Positions 50,969 through 61,452 of a DNA stretch of 64,000 nt are shown one piece after another. The notes beneath the pieces were generated by a model, which worked only from the letters and a program-made list of their open reading frames with translations, was not told the DNA's origin and made no database searches. Origin of the DNA: Sphingomonas taxi (lineage in GTDB: Bacteria > Pseudomonadota > Alphaproteobacteria > Sphingomonadales > Sphingomonadaceae). The stretch covers positions 3,033,001-3,097,000 of the forward strand of contig NZ_CP009571.1 of assembly GCF_000764535.1 (NCBI RefSeq), written 5' to 3'. Position numbers and translations under genes: made by a program. Numbering within the stretch: the stretch's first letter is position 1; each line of letters opens with the position of its first letter.

Positions 50969-53548
<2,580 letters not shown>

Positions 53549-53597: not shown

Positions 53598-56500
53598 TCA
53601 GAAGTTGACGCCGAACTGAATGCGCGCCGCGCGACCCGCGTTGTACTGCGTTGGCAGCGAATAGGTCGGCAATGGCGCACCTGCCGACGTGGTCCCAGTC
53701 TCCGAAAGCCGGAGCGCGGGCAGAGAGTTGAAGACGTTGAATACCGACAAGCGAACAAACCCGTTGAACGCGTCGGTCGGCAGCGCGACGGTCGCATCAA
53801 GGTTGATCTGCGCCAGCCAATCCGCCGTCAATTGCGAGCCGCGAGGCACGATGCCTAATGTGCTCGACCGCACTCCTCCCGCCCGGTCAAATCGATCGTT
53901 GATCACCGTAAAGCCGGTCGGGTCACGGACAACCGCACCGCTAGCCACGTTACAATAGGCGCCGCTCGTTCGATAATACAGGCCGGTGACCCCACCCGGG
54001 GCCGTAGCGTCGAAATCGCGGCTGGCCGGAGCCCGGCCATAGCAGCCGAACTTCCGTGGCGAGGTGACGTTGGCGTTCACGCCAAGCGTCAGCCAGTCGG
54101 TAAATTTGTAAGATCCCCAGATCTTGAAGTTGTGACGGCGATCATTAGGCAGATATCCATACGTGCCATCGACCAAGGCGGGCAGATCGAATGCCGTCGT
54201 CAAGCCGGCGTCAGTCTGACCGTTGTCCGAACGAACACCGCCTTCGATATTCCCATACAGCTTCGAATAGGAGTAGTTGGCGTGCAGTTCCCATTTGCCG
54301 TCGGTTTCACGATCAAGCGTGAAAACCACCCCTCGAAAGGTGCGTTGGGCACGCGGATATTGCAGGGCCACAGAGGGCAGGGTTACGGTTTGGCGCGACG
54401 TTTCGCCGGGAAGCGGATCGCTCAACGCGACGATGACATCACGCCCGGGATTGATCAGCGCGAACTGATGCACACCGTTCCAGATGGCACGGCAATCTGC
54501 GGCAGCTTTGCCCTGCGCGATGCAATAAGGCACGATAGCCTGATCGAGCGACGCATCCTCAAGCGAGTTATTCAATTTGGTCTGGGTGAAGTTGAAGCCC
54601 AGCCGGATGTGGTTGCCCAGTCGCCGTTCGATGCCGAAGACGATCTCGTCGGCCGACTGCGGCTTTAGATTCGCCGCAACCACCGAATCGGTATTCGGAA
54701 CCGTCCCGTCATTGCTGATCGTGCAGGCAGTCCCAGCCGGTGCATTGTTTGGACAGGCGGTGAAGCCGGCTCCCGTAGTGATCGGCGCGCCCAAGATCGG
54801 CACGTTGGTGGCCGTCAACCCGCCGAAGCGATAAAAGGCATTGTAGTCGAGTTCGCCGCCGGCGAGCCGGACGTTGGTGTTCACCGCCACCGGCAGATAA
54901 TAGCGGCTGAATGATCCAAAGAACTTGGTCCGTCCGTCACCGAGGGGATCGACGCTTGCACCAAGCCGAGGCGCCCACTGGTTCTTTGCGACGAAAAACG
55001 TCTGCCCTGCCGCATTGCGATTTTCGAACCGATCGTTGCGTATGCCGAGATTCAAGTTGATGCGGTTGTCGAACAGCCGCCACTCATCCTGCGCATAGAA
55101 CGCCGTGTTGCGGGTCGCGAACTGACCGCCGGTCTTAAACGTGCGCGCGGAGATATAGGACGTTCCACCGGCAAGACCCACGGTCGGATCGATCGTCGCA
55201 GCGCTCCCAGAGGCCGTAAGCAGCGTGTATTGCGCGCCGCCATTGGCGATCGTCGTTGAATTCTCGTCCAAATCCTCACGATCATAGCCGCCACGGATAT
55301 GGTGGGACCCGACCAAATCGAAACGAAGGTCGGCGTCGGCACGATAGAACGTGCGCTTGTCGAAATTAAGCGACGCATTGGACAGCGTATTGCCGATGCT
55401 GCTATTCGCGCCGTTACGCTGATCGAGCACGTAGGGAAGGTCAGCGACACTCGACTCGGTAGTATCAGTGTTCTTGTTGACGCCATAAGCCGCCGACAGT
55501 GTCAGCCAGTTGGTGAAGCTGCCGGTATATCGGAAGACATAATTCTCGCCGCCTGAACGATATATATTGGTCGCGACATAACCGCCCGGCGAATTCGTGT
55601 TCAGATTATAGCGAAGGCCACTCGCCAGCGTATACTGACTGGTTCCGAACACGTCCTCGATTTGCTTGCCACTGGTGTTCCAGTACGTAGCCTCCAGCCG
55701 CTGCCCGTCAATGATGACGGCGTCTACCTTGCCGCCCCAGAACGGGCTGGCATTGGAATTCCGGCTGTACGAAGTGCCGACCAGTTGCTGCCCGCTCGAG
55801 CGCAGATCCGCGTAGTCGGCGCAGACGTTCGCGTTGCTTGCACATCCCGATGCGCCTGTCTGTGCGGCGGATACAGTGCCTGTGTAACCCTGTCCCCAGC
55901 GGCCATCGCGCGCATTGTAGATACCATAGAAGAACAAATGATCCTTTATGATCGGGCCGGATAATTGGGCAATGAATTCGCTATTTTTTGAATATGCAGA
56001 ATCATTATCCGCAGCATAGGTATTCTTCGTCTTGGAGATGAGGCTGTTTGGCTGCCAGTTAAAGGTGATGCCGCCGTGCCATTCGTTGGACCCAGACTTG
56101 GTGGTGGTGTTGATCATGCCACCGGTAAACCGCCCAAATTCCGCGGGGACCCCACCGGTCTTGATCTGGACGGTTTGGTAGAATTCAAATGGAATCGCGA
56201 CCGCGCCAAGCCCATTGCGGAATTGCGTGATGTTCAGCCCGTTGACGTAATAGATATTTTCGGAGACCGACCCGCCGTTGACAGACGGGAGCCCGTTGTC
56301 GCGCACGGAGCCGAATCGATTGTCGCCGCCCGTCGTTCCGGGTGCCAGCAGGACGACCGACGTGAGATCGCGGGCGACAGGGACCCGGATCGCGACATCC
56401 GCGACATCGACGGTCTGGCCGACGGTGTTGCTGCTGAAATCGACGACCTGCACCCGCCCTGCGGTCACCACGATGTCCTCGCCCGTGCTGGCGTCAGTCA

Positions 56501-56879
56501 GTTGCAGATTGAATTGATTCGCCGCGCGCCCCTGGATTAGCCGAACGGTCGGGTCGGTAAAGCTCTGGTAGCCCTCAGCAGAAACGGTGAAGCTGTACGT
56601 ACCTTGCGGCAAAGCCGAGATCACGTAGCTCCCATCCTGACCAGTCACGGCACTGCGCGTAAAGCCCTGGGCCACCGACGTAACCGTCACGTTTGCGCCG
56701 GCGATGGCCTTTCCATCAGTTCCTAGGACCCGCCCAGTTGCGTTGACTTGGGTATAGTCCTGCGCCACCGCGGGCACGGCAACCGTCATCATGGCAGCGC
56801 CCGCCCCCATCAATGTCAGCGCCTGCATCGCAGCGCCGGCGCGTAATGCGTGGCGCGCAATTGTCGTATTCGTGATCAT
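53598..56879 (-). CDS. TonB-dependent receptor, Oar-like, with carboxypeptidase-regulatory-like N-domain
   Basis: 1093 residues. The signal peptide (to about residue 39, ending AVPAVAQ) is followed by a transthyretin-like regulatory domain (about 44-130: NATGRVLGTDGKAIAGANVT ... ISALPQGTYSFTVSAEGYQS), a plug domain (about 150-270: LTSVVLLAPGTTGGDNRFGS ... IKTGGVPAEFGRFTGGMINT) and a long beta-barrel ending in Phe (RIQFGVNF), the outer-membrane assembly signal. This is the Oar type found in Caulobacter and sphingomonads, probably for large or peptide-like substrates; the ligand is unknown. Third-position A/T use is clearly higher than in neighbouring genes, a sign of foreign origin. It lies between clpB and a broken clpB copy. 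Confidence 0.93.
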   Translation of the reverse strand: MITNTTIARHALRAGAAMQALTLMGAGAAMMTVAVPAVAQDYTQVNATGRVLGTDGKAIAGANVTVTSVAQGFTRSAVTGQDGSYVISALPQGTYSFTVSAEGYQSFTDPTVRLIQGRAANQFNLQLTDASTGEDIVVTAGRVQVVDFSSNTVGQTVDVADVAIRVPVARDLTSVVLLAPGTTGGDNRFGSVRDNGLPSVNGGSVSENIYYVNGLNITQFRNGLGAVAIPFEFYQTVQIKTGGVPAEFGRFTGGMINTTTKSGSNEWHGGITFNWQPNSLISKTKNTYAADNDSAYSKNSEFIAQLSGPIIKDHLFFYGIYNARDGRWGQGYTGTVSAAQTGASGCASNANVCADYADLRSSGQQLVGTSYSRNSNASPFWGGKVDAVIIDGQRLEATYWNTSGKQIEDVFGTSQYTLASGLRYNLNTNSPGGYVATNIYRSGGENYVFRYTGSFTNWLTLSAAYGVNKNTDTTESSVADLPYVLDQRNGANSSIGNTLSNASLNFDKRTFYRADADLRFDLVGSHHIRGGYDREDLDENSTTIANGGAQYTLLTASGSAATIDPTVGLAGGTSYISARTFKTGGQFATRNTAFYAQDEWRLFDNRINLNLGIRNDRFENRNAAGQTFFVAKNQWAPRLGASVDPLGDGRTKFFGSFSRYYLPVAVNTNVRLAGGELDYNAFYRFGGLTATNVPILGAPITTGAGFTACPNNAPAGTACTISNDGTVPNTDSVVAANLKPQSADEIVFGIERRLGNHIRLGFNFTQTKLNNSLEDASLDQAIVPYCIAQGKAAADCRAIWNGVHQFALINPGRDVIVALSDPLPGETSRQTVTLPSVALQYPRAQRTFRGVVFTLDRETDGKWELHANYSYSKLYGNIEGGVRSDNGQTDAGLTTAFDLPALVDGTYGYLPNDRRHNFKIWGSYKFTDWLTLGVNANVTSPRKFGCYGRAPASRDFDATAPGGVTGLYYRTSGAYCNVASGAVVRDPTGFTVINDRFDRAGGVRSSTLGIVPRGSQLTADWLAQINLDATVALPTDAFNGFVRLSVFNVFNSLPALRLSETGTTSAGAPLPTYSLPTQYNAGRAARIQFGVNF

Positions 56880-57285
56880 GCGTTTCCCCTTCGCTCGACC
56901 GGAATCACCCCATGCTGGAGCGATGTCTCGGTCAGCCTACCCTGTGCCCTCCCGTACTTGGCCAGTGCCGTACGGACGACATGACCATGAAACTATTCCT
57001 GCCGCAGACTGTAAAGCCGACCACCTCTCTTATTTAGATAATCGTATAATATCGTGCCTTTTATGTCACGATTGCAATCGTGATGGTACTTAACCCTGAT
57101 TACCACTGTTGGTCCATGCTAAATCATTGATGATAAATAGCTAAGTTTGTCATTCCTTGATCGCAATGGTTGTCAGCCGTAAAAATTACGCACTTTCTGT
57201 ATTACGTGAGGGGACTCAGTGTGCCCGCGATATGTGGATGCAGAGTACTGACCTTGGCTATCCCTCCGCTCGAGAGACCGAGAAT
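56880..57285. promoter_or_regulatory. AT-rich upstream region of the Oar-like receptor, with 18-base palindrome
   Basis: This 406-base stretch has no convincing gene and is much more AT-rich than the rest. It contains the perfect palindrome TCACGATTGCAATCGTGA at 57066-57083. On the minus strand a TATTAT box (57046-57051) stands about 20 bases downstream of the palindrome centre, towards the receptor gene, so the palindrome may be an operator at its promoter. Which protein binds is unknown. An open frame here (57157-57540, plus) has no ribosome site and mixed composition and was not called. Confidence 0.5.
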
Positions 57286-58025
57286 GCGACGCTCCGCGAG
57301 GAGGCACCAAGAACGACATCGGCGGCGGCGTCGGGTGCTGGACCGGCAATCTATGGAGCGGTGCTGCAGGACAAATGCGACAAATCGCCCAGCATGGAAG
57401 AGGTGATCACCGGTGCGTCATTGACCAAGCGCAGGCCGTGCGGCGCCGGCCCTATCAAGTCGTGCTGTTCGACGAGGTCGAGAAGGCGCACGGCGACGTG
57501 TTCAACGTGCTGCTGCAGGTGCTCGACGACGGCCGGCTGACCGATGGCCAGGGGCGGACGGTGGATTTCAGCAACACGCTGATCATCCTGACGTCCAACC
57601 TCGGCTCGCAATATCTCGCCGCGGTCGAGGAGGGGCAGGCGGTCGAGACGGTCGAGCCGCAGGTGATGGAGGTCGTCCGCGCCCATTTCCGGCCCGAATT
57701 CCTCAACCGGCTCGACGAGATCATCCTGTTCCACCGGCTGGGTCAGAGCCATATGGCGCCGATCGTCGACATCCAGGTGGCGCGCGTCGGCAAATTGCTC
57801 GCCGACCGCAAGGTGACGCTCGACCTGACCGACGCCGCGCGCAACTGGCTGGGCCGGGTGGGCTACGATCCCGTCTACGGCGCCCGGCCGCTGAAACGCG
57901 CGGTGCAGCGCTATCTGCAGGACCCGCTCGCCGACATGATCCTGCGCGGCGAGGTGAAGGACGGCGCCACGGTGCACGTCGACGAGGGCGACGGCAAACT
58001 GGTGCTGACGGTGGGACAGGCATAG
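57286..58025 (+). pseudogene. clpB: Degraded second copy of clpB (3' part), with in-frame deletion
   Basis: Bases 57286-57432 align with clpB 52545-52694 at roughly 80%, with frameshifting gaps (shared MLREE, W-T-G, MER and RDK segments at DNA level). From 57433 the alignment jumps to clpB 52962, so 267 bases (89 codons, clpB residues about 579-667, including the second Walker A) are missing. The jump falls on AGGCNGTGCG, present at both ends in clpB (52695-52704 and 52962-52971). From there to the end (57433-58018) the copy has about 15 differences in some 580 bases, all but one silent. An open frame from ATG 57375 gives 216 residues ending VLTVGQA, against VLTVA in clpB. Whether this piece is expressed is unknown; it cannot bind ATP through Walker A. 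Confidence 0.88.
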
Positions 58026-58051
58026 CCCGACCTTCCGGACCGGACACAAAA

Positions 58052-58080
58052 AAGGGCGGGTCGTGAGACCCGCCCTTCTT
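58052..58080. terminator. Bidirectional terminator after the clpB fragment
   Basis: AAGGGCGGGTC-GTGA-GACCCGCCCTT, preceded by AAAA and followed by CTTC, is a perfect 11-base stem. It lies between the convergent clpB fragment and second receptor gene. Confidence 0.85.
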
Positions 58081-58100
58081 CGTTCGGAAGGCGAAGCGCT

Positions 58101-61100
58101 TTAGAAGTTGAACTTCGCGCCGGCACGGTAGGACCGGCCGAAAATGCCCTCGCCGCCCTGCACCGCATTGTACAGATAGGCGCCATAGGTGACCGGATCG
58201 ATCGGAGGCAGACGGTTGAAGATGTTCAACGCGTTCACGTAGAACGAGAACTTGTCGTTGACCTTGAACGTCGCATTCGCGTCGGCCGTGATGTAGCTCT
58301 TCACGCGGCAACCCGAATAGGCAGGTGCCTGGCCGCAATCCTTATACGCGTCACCCTGATCCATCGCCGACAGGTCATAGCCCGACGTATAGTTGACGGT
58401 ACCGGTCAGCGCGAGGTCGCCGAAGTCGAACGTGTTGGACCAGTTGCCCTTCCACTCGAACGTCCCCGAACCCGCGGTCAGGTTGAAGTTGCCGAGCGTG
58501 TCGACATAGGTCTGGCGAACGCCGTCGACCGTCGTGCTCAGCTCCAGGATGAGGCTGGCGTTCAGGTTGGTCGTCCACTTCACCCCGCCGAAGTCGACGA
58601 AACCGTTGGCGCCGAAGTCGATGCCCTCGGACTTGATCGTCTGCGCGTTGATCAGCTGCGAACGGACGAAGGCGATCTTTGGCCGTGCGGTCGGGTTGTT
58701 CACGTCGACCGCGTCCGGGATCACTTCGAAGCCGGTCGGGATGGCCTGACCCGCATAGTAAGCGGCGATCGCCGGCGAGAGGTCCGGCGTGGTGATCGCG
58801 CCGGTCTTCTTGATGTTATAGTAATCGACCGTCAGCGACAGGCTGCGGATCGGTTCGAACTTGATGCCGGCGGTGAAGCTGCGCGACTTCTCCGGCTTCA
58901 GGTCCGGCGACGCCAGGGTGGTCTGGCCGATCGAATAGGCGGTGATGTAGCCCGAGCAGTTGTTCGGGGTGTTCGCCGTACAGATCTGGCCGGCACCCGG
59001 ATTGGTGCTGTACTGGCTGAGGAACGCGGCCGGAATGCTCGAAAGCTGCTGCGTCACATAGCCGGTCGTCGGCAGGGCGTTCGCCTCGCCGAACGAGGGG
59101 ATGCGGAACCCGCGCGAATAGGTGCCGCGGACGGTGACCTGCTGGATCGGGGTGAAGATCGCGCCGAACTTCGGCGAGAAGTTGCTCTGACCGGTCGAAT
59201 AATGGTCATAGCGGCCCGAGGCGTTCAGGGTCAGCTGATCGAGGATCGGAGCGTTGATTTCGCCGAAGGCCGAGGTGACGGTACGGTTGCCGCTGGTGCC
59301 GAAGGCGTTCTGGCGGAAATAGCGCTGCGTCGGGCCGTTGGTGTCGGGGTTGCCGCTGGGGGCGTCGACCGCCTCGTAGAAGACCGATCCGCCGACCGCG
59401 ACGCGAAGATCGCCGCCGGGCAGCGCGAACAGCGCCTTACCGAGGGTGAACTGCGCCTGGTAGAGGTCCGAGCTGCTGTTGGTGATGTTCTGCGGCGTCA
59501 GATAGTCGAGCGTCGCCTGGCTGTTCAGCTCGGGATTGACGAAATTGTAGCTGCCGTCGGCGATGACATCGAGCAGATGCTGGATGTAGACATAGCCGTC
59601 GGTACGACGACGCAGGTCGGTGTGCATCGCGGTCGCATCGGCCCGGTAATCGACGTCGCCGAAGATGGTCCCGTTGATGCCCATGGCGGCGCGATAGACG
59701 CGGCTGCGGGTTTCGTTGAACTCACGCTCGTTGGCGAGGGTGCCGACGAGGCGGGCGACCTGGCCCGATGCCGCGAACGGGTTGTTCGGGTTGAGCGTCC
59801 CGTTGGTCGCGTTGCACGTCGCCGTGCCGCGTGCGCAGATGTAGACCGGCAGGGCGAGGATCGCCGAGCGCGGATCGATCGCTGCGGTGGCGTTCTGCGA
59901 GGTCGAATATTGCGGGAACAGGATACCCGCCGGCGCATTCGCGCGGATCGTCGCCGGCACGCCCGTGTAGCTGGCGGTCGACTGCTGGAAGTTGACCTGG
60001 AAATAGGCTTCCGACGTATCGCCGACCTTCGCGGTGAAGCGTGCCGAACCACCGAAACGCTCCTGATCGGGCGTCACGTTGCCATAGAGGTTCTGCGTAT
60101 CGACCTGGCAGACCGTGCCCGGAGCCGTCGCGTTGATCGGCAGCGCCAGTTCGGCGGCGGTCGGATTGTAGGGGGTGCCGACGCGGCAACCGGCCGTCGG
60201 ATTCAGCAGCTGGTAGCGGCCGAGCGCGGTCGTGTTGGTGGCGTTGGCCGGACGGACGTAGAAATTGCCCGTGCCGATCGCGAACCCGTTGGTGAACGAG
60301 CCATTGGCGTCGAGGCCATTGGCGACGTTGTTCGGGCCGCAGACGCGCGTACCGGTGCGATCGCCACACAGGCCGCGTTCGTCGCTGCTGTTGAACGGTG
60401 CCGGCAGCGACTTGGACTGCACGCCTTCGGCGCGATAGTAGAAGCCGCTGACGTAAGCGTTGTAGCCCTTTTCGTCGAGATCGCCGGTGCCGGCGGTCAG
60501 CGACAGGCGCTGGTTGGCGTTGTAGCCGCGTTCCGCGATACCGGCTTCGACGCGACCGGTGACGCCCTGGAACGAACGCTTGGTGATGATGTTGACCACA
60601 CCCGCGATCGCGTCCGCGCCGTAGCTCGACGACGCGCCGTCGCGCAGCACGTCGACGCGCTCGACGATGTCGTCGGGGATCGTGTTGAGATCGACGAAGT
60701 TGCGCGAGCCGTCGTCCGACAGCGGATAGTAAGCGGCGCGCAGGCCGTCGAACAGGACCAGCGTCGAGTTGGTCGACAGACCGCGCAGCGATACCGACGA
60801 TGCGCCCGATGCGAAGGCACCGTTCGCGGTGAAGGAGTTGGTCAGCGCCGGACCGTTGTTGGACGACAGCGCCTGGATACCAGCCTGCACCGTGTTGATG
60901 CCGCGGGCATCGAGATTCTCGGTGGTGATCGTGCTGACCGGCGACGGACCGGCGTCGGTACCGCGGATGATCGAACCGGTTACGACGATGTCATTGCCGG
61001 CCTGATCGTCTGCCGCCTCGGTACCCTGCGTCTGCTGTGCGATCGAAGCGGCATCGGTGGACGCGCCTTCCGGCGCGGTCTGCGCCGAGACGGCGCCCGC

Positions 61101-61172
61101 ATAAAGCATCGCGAACGGCGTAACGGCTGCGAGCAGCGCCGCCTTGCGCGTGGAACGGTGGATCGTGAACAT
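58101..61172 (-). CDS. TonB-dependent receptor
   Basis: 1023 residues from the ATG at 61172 (a GGGAA site lies upstream). The signal peptide (KAALLAAVTPFAMLYAGAVS-AQ, to about 31) is followed by a TonB-box region (NDIVVTGSIIRG), a plug domain (about 75-200: VSLRGLSTNSTLVLFDGLRA, RVDVLRDGASSSYGADAIAG, VVNIITKRSFQG) and a beta-barrel ending FGRSYRAGAKFNF with terminal Phe. It belongs to the large iron/carbohydrate/peptide receptor group (TBDR with plug and STN-less N-terminus) common in sphingomonads. The substrate cannot be named. Composition is like the rest of the chromosome, unlike the Oar-like receptor next to it. Confidence 0.94.
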   Translation of the reverse strand: MFTIHRSTRKAALLAAVTPFAMLYAGAVSAQTAPEGASTDAASIAQQTQGTEAADDQAGNDIVVTGSIIRGTDAGPSPVSTITTENLDARGINTVQAGIQALSSNNGPALTNSFTANGAFASGASSVSLRGLSTNSTLVLFDGLRAAYYPLSDDGSRNFVDLNTIPDDIVERVDVLRDGASSSYGADAIAGVVNIITKRSFQGVTGRVEAGIAERGYNANQRLSLTAGTGDLDEKGYNAYVSGFYYRAEGVQSKSLPAPFNSSDERGLCGDRTGTRVCGPNNVANGLDANGSFTNGFAIGTGNFYVRPANATNTTALGRYQLLNPTAGCRVGTPYNPTAAELALPINATAPGTVCQVDTQNLYGNVTPDQERFGGSARFTAKVGDTSEAYFQVNFQQSTASYTGVPATIRANAPAGILFPQYSTSQNATAAIDPRSAILALPVYICARGTATCNATNGTLNPNNPFAASGQVARLVGTLANEREFNETRSRVYRAAMGINGTIFGDVDYRADATAMHTDLRRRTDGYVYIQHLLDVIADGSYNFVNPELNSQATLDYLTPQNITNSSSDLYQAQFTLGKALFALPGGDLRVAVGGSVFYEAVDAPSGNPDTNGPTQRYFRQNAFGTSGNRTVTSAFGEINAPILDQLTLNASGRYDHYSTGQSNFSPKFGAIFTPIQQVTVRGTYSRGFRIPSFGEANALPTTGYVTQQLSSIPAAFLSQYSTNPGAGQICTANTPNNCSGYITAYSIGQTTLASPDLKPEKSRSFTAGIKFEPIRSLSLTVDYYNIKKTGAITTPDLSPAIAAYYAGQAIPTGFEVIPDAVDVNNPTARPKIAFVRSQLINAQTIKSEGIDFGANGFVDFGGVKWTTNLNASLILELSTTVDGVRQTYVDTLGNFNLTAGSGTFEWKGNWSNTFDFGDLALTGTVNYTSGYDLSAMDQGDAYKDCGQAPAYSGCRVKSYITADANATFKVNDKFSFYVNALNIFNRLPPIDPVTYGAYLYNAVQGGEGIFGRSYRAGAKFNF

Positions 61173-61452
61173 GTGTTTCCCTTGCCTGACCCAAACGTGT
61201 CGACCCGCTGTGACGGTATCGGCCCGGGTGTTTGCCAAGCCCCCCTCGACCGCTGGAGCGGCCCTCAAGAGACATACCGCTGAAATGCGGGCGGAAATTT
61301 TTGCTGTAAACCTGCGTTTCAAAAACCGGCAACGTTTGCCGCACAGTGTAGCCTAAATGACACAATTATTGTCGTTGTTCGGCTGTCGCGGTAGAATCCC
61401 TGCTCGCAATTGCAGCATGACGACGCGATCTGTCGTTTTGAGGGGCAGGCCC

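Follow-up and report, generated by a model that had tools for sequence, protein, structure and literature searches.

The window, a stretch of 64,000 nucleotides from Sphingomonas taxi, contains an intact clpB gene and, a short distance downstream, a fragment of a second copy. The fragment raises a question: how can a broken gene copy have a decayed front and, joined to it, a tail that is almost identical to that of the intact gene? The order of genes at the locus is M16 peptidase (minus strand), clpB, TBDR1 (minus strand), the clpB remnant and TBDR2 (minus strand), followed by further genes, one of which is probably xseA (called xseA-like below). Among named records, the best-ranking relatives of this clpB come mostly from Sphingomonas and other Sphingomonadales. 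TBDR1 is presumably an Oar-like receptor. The two clpB tails form a 581-base direct repeat around the TBDR1 segment; this arrangement is observed directly, and its coordinates are collected in Table 1. A DNA search of the whole genome (4.06 Mb in three contigs) returned only two other clpB matches, both short (76-83%) and near C1:3557 kb; these would belong to a paralogous Clp gene. Upstream of TBDR1, the stretch 56880-57285 is AT-rich (GC ca. 0.40 at 57000-57199), and no convincing DNA match to it was found among 20 relative loci tested.

Table 1. Features of the clpB locus, in window coordinates.
Feature	Position	Strand	Basis or remark
Intact clpB, 859 aa	50969..53548	+	TIGR03346 above cut-off; alignment to remnant
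Direct-repeat arm 1 (intact clpB tail)	52962-53542	+	581 bases
TBDR1, outer-membrane receptor, carboxypeptidase-regulatory domain and OMP_b-brl_4 barrel	53598..56879	-	Pfam; orthologs 3' of clpB elsewhere in genus
clpB remnant, whole	57286-58013	+	DNA alignment to clpB
Remnant front, decayed	57286..57432	+	81% to clpB from 52544; 5 gap columns
Front/tail joint with 267-base in-frame deletion	57423..57446	+	AGGCNGTGCG near-repeat
Remnant fresh tail (direct-repeat arm 2)	57433..58013	+	97.2% to 52964-53542; flank follows clpB in G111
Flank with hairpin/terminator-like sequence	58014..58100		Directly behind clpB in G111
TBDR2, TonB-dependent receptor	58101..61322	-	Pfam; adjoins clpB in G111, G104 and G157

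For comparison, the neighborhood of clpB was surveyed in 109 of the 294 other genomes of the genus; these were mostly chosen for high clpB-tail similarity and in some cases by TBDR1 matches, and are not a random sample. The genus-wide clpB-tail and TBDR1 searches scored few candidates per genome. With the window and 19 loci from a separate collection of genome contigs, 129 loci were available (110 from the genus). Enough DNA lay behind clpB in 127 of them, and each of these was searched with its own clpB; the other two were too short downstream.

The remnant had been described, from the letters alone, as a mosaic of an old front and a nearly identical tail, and the alignments bore this out. 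Bases 57286-57446 aligned to clpB 52544-52707 at 81% identity (30 of the 160 aligned bases mismatched), with five gap columns, and the own-genome DNA search linked this front to clpB at an E-value of 4.3e-29, which upholds its supposed clpB origin. The tail (57435-58013, aligned to 52964-53542) differed at 16 of 579 sites (97.2% identity), and 15 of the differences are silent; the earlier figure of about 97% thus stands, while the accompanying count of 15 differences with 14 silent is raised by one in each case. Similarity stops abruptly at 53542/58013. Between front and tail, the alignment offset changes from 4738 to 4471, so that the border is indeed an in-frame deletion of 267 bases. The sequence AGGCNGTGCG, a 10-base near-repeat, occurs at each of the two places in clpB that the joint brings together.

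The two parts have decayed very differently. At codon positions 1 and 2, 19 of 106 sites differed in the front, compared to 3 of 386 in the tail (Fisher, 5e-11), so the contrast is not due to chance; at third positions, the respective values were 11 of 54 and 13 of 193 (p = 0.007). The mismatches of the front were distributed over codon positions 1, 2 and 3 as 9, 10 and 11. When the clpB genes of eight relatives were compared to the window's clpB over the same stretch, 1-7 first, 0-2 second and 6-15 third positions differed. Damage that is even over codon positions, unlike that in the relatives' clpB, means that most of the divergence postdates the loss of function, in agreement with the earlier claim that the duplication is not recent. 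This decay pattern is a direct observation: at positions 1 and 2 it amounts to 0.205 per site (0.12-0.33), compared to an upper bound of ca. 0.007 amino-acid-changing substitutions per site on the branch of the tail. Dating by silent sites is uncertain because the codon bias of clpB is strong (GC3 0.90). In an 18-row tree, the front was a long, unplaced branch that joined the window (W) in 0% of 200 bootstrap trees; since the tree cannot place it, the assignment of the front to this lineage rests on the mismatch pattern.

Relatives indicate which of the two copies holds the ancestral place. In G111, the closest genome of the genus by clpB-tail match among the matches listed, clpB runs directly into what lies behind the remnant in the window, namely the flank and TBDR2, and TBDR1 is not at the locus. 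Two further genomes (G104 and G157) also have clpB followed by TBDR2 without TBDR1. Because that flank lies directly behind clpB in G111, the position now occupied by the remnant tail is the ancestral one of the clpB 3' end. The displaced 3' piece has kept the old downstream neighbor, and the intact clpB has a new one, TBDR1. A DNA search of 295 genomes of the genus gave full-length TBDR1 matches (73-78%) in at least seven others (G017, G306, G307, G294, G141, G134 and G266), and in 7/7 of those listed the ortholog was located downstream of clpB: at no more than 90 bases in G017, G294, G134 and G266, at ca. 0.9 kb in G306 and G307, and behind another receptor in G141. The donor-type order, i.e. 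clpB followed by a TBDR1 ortholog, is thus present in other genomes. G017 has the order clpB-TBDR1-TBDR2, with no clpB remnant at the locus; such a change therefore need not leave a displaced tail behind.

TBDR2 has its own history. The TBDR2 of G017 (L160) is only 63% identical to that of the window, compared to 91-95% for clpB, the M16 peptidase and the xseA-like gene, and hence seems to have been replaced too. Against G111 (L151), TBDR2 had a dS of 0.68 at 96% protein identity; the dS was 0.29 for clpB and 0.19 for the xseA-like gene, and DNA identity to G111 drops to ca. 80% near 60734-61333. Recombination inside or beside TBDR2 (58101-61322) is possible on this evidence.

The idea that TBDR1 is a recently foreign gene, as judged by dS, was considered and rejected. 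The copies of the window and G017 differed from all others by a dS of 1.18-1.79 (clpB in those comparisons, 0.35-0.63), but high values also occur within the G306 group, in which 12 of 15 pairs had a TBDR1 dS of 0.64-0.92 (the other three, 0.25-0.43) and clpB had 0.27-0.33. TBDR1 simply changes fast, through weaker codon bias (GC3 0.71 vs. 0.90 for clpB) or recombination, and vertical inheritance with loss in G111 is therefore a possible history.

Among the 127 loci searched, a long second clpB copy was found only in the window and in G253 (2 of the 110 genus loci). The remaining second-copy matches were 19-65 bases long, apart from one weak match at the protein level, and similar ones were obtained with reversed sequence; with the window ClpB as the query, one more weak match was detected, at a distance of 14 kb in G112 (39%, E 7e-3). 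In G253, the second copy is a decayed clpB tail (L257, G253:C96:1-17000) located at +6967 to +7234 relative to the clpB end, in clpB-forward orientation. Of the 88 sites at each codon position, 17, 15 and 37 are mismatched against that genome's own clpB, and the alignment has 10 gap columns. The decayed tail is preceded by a block of ca. 6 kb that is 73-76% similar to the block at the corresponding place behind the clpB of G065. It is followed by a stretch whose relationship to the stretch that comes first after clpB in G016, G236 and G116 shows in a translated search and hardly in the DNA, and then by a TBDR1-like gene (60%); in those three genomes, a TBDR1-like match lies ca. 1.5-1.6 kb behind clpB. 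This parallel is directly observed. As read from the sequence, G253 is an independent clpB-anchored displacement, with the donor-type and recipient-type orders both found elsewhere.

How the tail stayed fresh was examined by assigning its differences to branches. With G111 as the outgroup, six of the 16 differences fell on the clpB branch (five silent) and eight on the remnant branch (all silent); two were ambiguous (both silent). That the differences are almost purely silent is an observation. The sole amino-acid difference is at 57936, where clpB codes for Leu and the remnant for Met, and the intact clpB was probably the copy that changed, because G111 and G017 both have the remnant's base. 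With this single outgroup, the chance of eight silent changes out of eight on a neutral remnant was 2e-5 to 1.3e-4, depending on transition bias. Under strict polarity (G111 and G017 in agreement), there were only three remnant-branch sites (P = 0.02-0.04) and four clpB-branch sites. In a polarity-free calculation with the 15 silent changes split evenly, P was 0.001-0.002 for zero amino-acid changes on the remnant and 0.003-0.0075 for at most one. Between the tails, dN was 0.002 and dS 0.108, against a dS of 0.29 between the clpB genes of the window and G111. Since no amino-acid change was assigned to the remnant branch, the tail probably evolved within a working clpB until recently; the evidence for this is good, not overwhelming.

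The preliminary description had offered two explanations for the fresh tail, of which the first was gene conversion: the intact clpB would overwrite the uninterrupted tail and stop at the deletion. The local tails are in fact sisters in a tree of 111 tails (100/78), and a 197-base stretch (57546-57742) is identical in both although G111 differs there at 10 sites. But a neutral converted copy would gather mostly amino-acid-changing substitutions, and none was assigned to the remnant; with 15 of 16 differences silent (P = 0.001-0.0075, polarity-free), the local gene fits poorly as the source. A GENECONV-style permutation test gave p = 0.06 for the longest shared tract (54 polymorphic third positions in a row), i.e. 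no clear conversion tract. Homologous recombination is thus retained as the likely cause, the local clpB is not retained as the source, and intragenomic conversion as the whole explanation appears unlikely; a recent conversion limited to the middle stretch is possible. Although the remnant tail groups with the local clpB, both show the kind of change expected of a working gene, and this pattern points to an allele from a close relative that is not in the sample. The simplest source of the tail would be the clpB of such a relative without TBDR1. The two local copies are about equally distant from G111 (93.6 and 93.3%), so either of them may be the import.

The second explanation was selection on the tail. 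In that case the front would decay freely, and the target of selection would be either a C-terminal part of ClpB made on its own or a regulatory sequence. There is an open frame at 57375-58025, the ratio of dN to dS between the tails is as low as given above, and the front could be as old as the divergence between the tails if silent sites in clpB evolve far more slowly than neutral ones. However, the open frame is without the first 68 of the 166 AAA_2 profile positions, which presumably contain the Walker A motif, and by eye no clear ribosome-binding site precedes the ATG at 57375 or the GTG at 57438. No similar open frame was found in the 126 other loci searched, and the second tail of G253 is decayed. 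Selection on the tail is therefore quite unlikely.

Taken together, the remnant is probably the scar of two recombination steps, a reading that we hold with moderate confidence: an old clpB-anchored insertion of TBDR1, and a later replacement of the tail from a close relative. We infer the number and order of the events, as well as the donor. In the old step, clpB-anchored recombination would have set TBDR1 directly behind clpB and displaced the former 3' part of clpB downstream, beside its old neighbor TBDR2. The displaced piece would then have decayed and lost 267 bases at the near-repeat; the AGGCNGTGCG joint may reflect a deletion older than the tail replacement. In the recent step, the remnant tail from the deletion joint onward would have been replaced by a working clpB tail, the donor being a close relative with TBDR2 directly behind clpB. 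A mirror version, in which a segment of TBDR1 plus the old front entered such a relative, would give the same sequence and is indistinguishable here. Several points weigh against this reading: the full arrangement of TBDR1 and decayed remnant was seen in no other genome examined, no genome examined has a clpB with the exact silent alleles of the remnant, G017 has TBDR1 and no remnant, the front has no firm place in the tree, and strict polarity retains just three sites on the remnant branch. In its favor, the genome has members of the ComEC and DprA gene families, which makes DNA uptake conceivable.

A single event could be envisaged instead. A segment, circular or linear, that contained TBDR1 and the tail of a related clpB would have entered through a crossover in clpB, and the decayed front would have been carried along. 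The TBDR1 segment does lie between the arms of a 581-base direct repeat, as expected after integration by a single crossover, and the tails differ like two functional alleles. Yet this requires a segment in which a decayed piece of clpB was already joined colinearly with the tail, so an older donor remnant is needed anyway, and we regard this version as quite improbable. If the two-step recombination scar is the correct reading, a pseudogene fragment can look freshly conserved with neither selection nor self-copying, because recombination with relatives renews it.

The place behind clpB varies in its receptor content. A receptor-type match started within 310 bases of the clpB end in 56 of the 110 genus loci, 55 of them in convergent orientation; because the genomes were mostly picked by clpB-tail similarity, such counts are not unbiased frequencies. 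In one tree group of 13 genomes (100/100), the content of this slot differed between members: TBDR1 orthologs in G134, G266 and G294 (also G306 and G307, at 0.9 kb), receptors 47-48% like TBDR1 in G310, G143 and G123 and ca. 33% like it in G140 and G141, a TBDR2 ortholog in G142 (82%), and other receptor-type matches in G265 and G283. Tentatively, Sphingomonas-like bacteria might use the clpB 3' end as a permanent anchor of homology when they swap outer-membrane receptor genes; the slot would change its receptor even among near relatives, displaced tails would be the scars, and the 581-base repeats would make TBDR1 a removable unit. If so, loss of TBDR1 via the repeats would restore the arrangement of G111. 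In the literature searched, we found no account of a receptor slot behind clpB, which does not prove that none exists, and nothing on gene conversion of a clpB pseudogene in bacteria.

The locus may be compared to three known systems. Homology-facilitated illegitimate recombination was described in three naturally competent species and, at low efficiency, in E. coli conjugation (PMC3240628). The likeness consists of homology on one side (here clpB), a gain of new DNA and, possibly, a short-homology joint on the other side; that process was seen in experiments, whereas the present one is deduced from sequence, and its joint may be a later deletion in an old remnant. In the displacement of T6SS effector and Rhs genes, a conserved upstream anchor receives new downstream genes, and old 3' pieces are pushed downstream in order (PMC5361080). 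An upstream anchor, inserted genes and orphaned 3' ends are common to both; there, however, the roles of anchor and orphan fall to effector, immunity or rhs genes, and selection may maintain the orphans. In the window, a housekeeping gene, clpB, serves as the anchor and a receptor gene as the cargo, and what has been orphaned is a fragment in decay whose tail was renewed. In the papers considered, displacement is described for toxin and effector loci; the window hints that a chaperone gene can anchor the turnover of nutrient-receptor genes. Merodiploids of Streptococcus pneumoniae that arise by transformation (PMC3784515) likewise have extra gene copies left by recombination with incoming DNA, but the tandem duplications reported there are ca. 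100-900 kb in length, unlike the 581-base repeat around a 3.9-kb segment here. With a joint that is possibly illegitimate, the window is best filed, by analogy, as a new instance of the displacement logic of homology-facilitated illegitimate recombination and the Rhs/T6SS loci, with an unusual anchor and an additional renewal of the tail.
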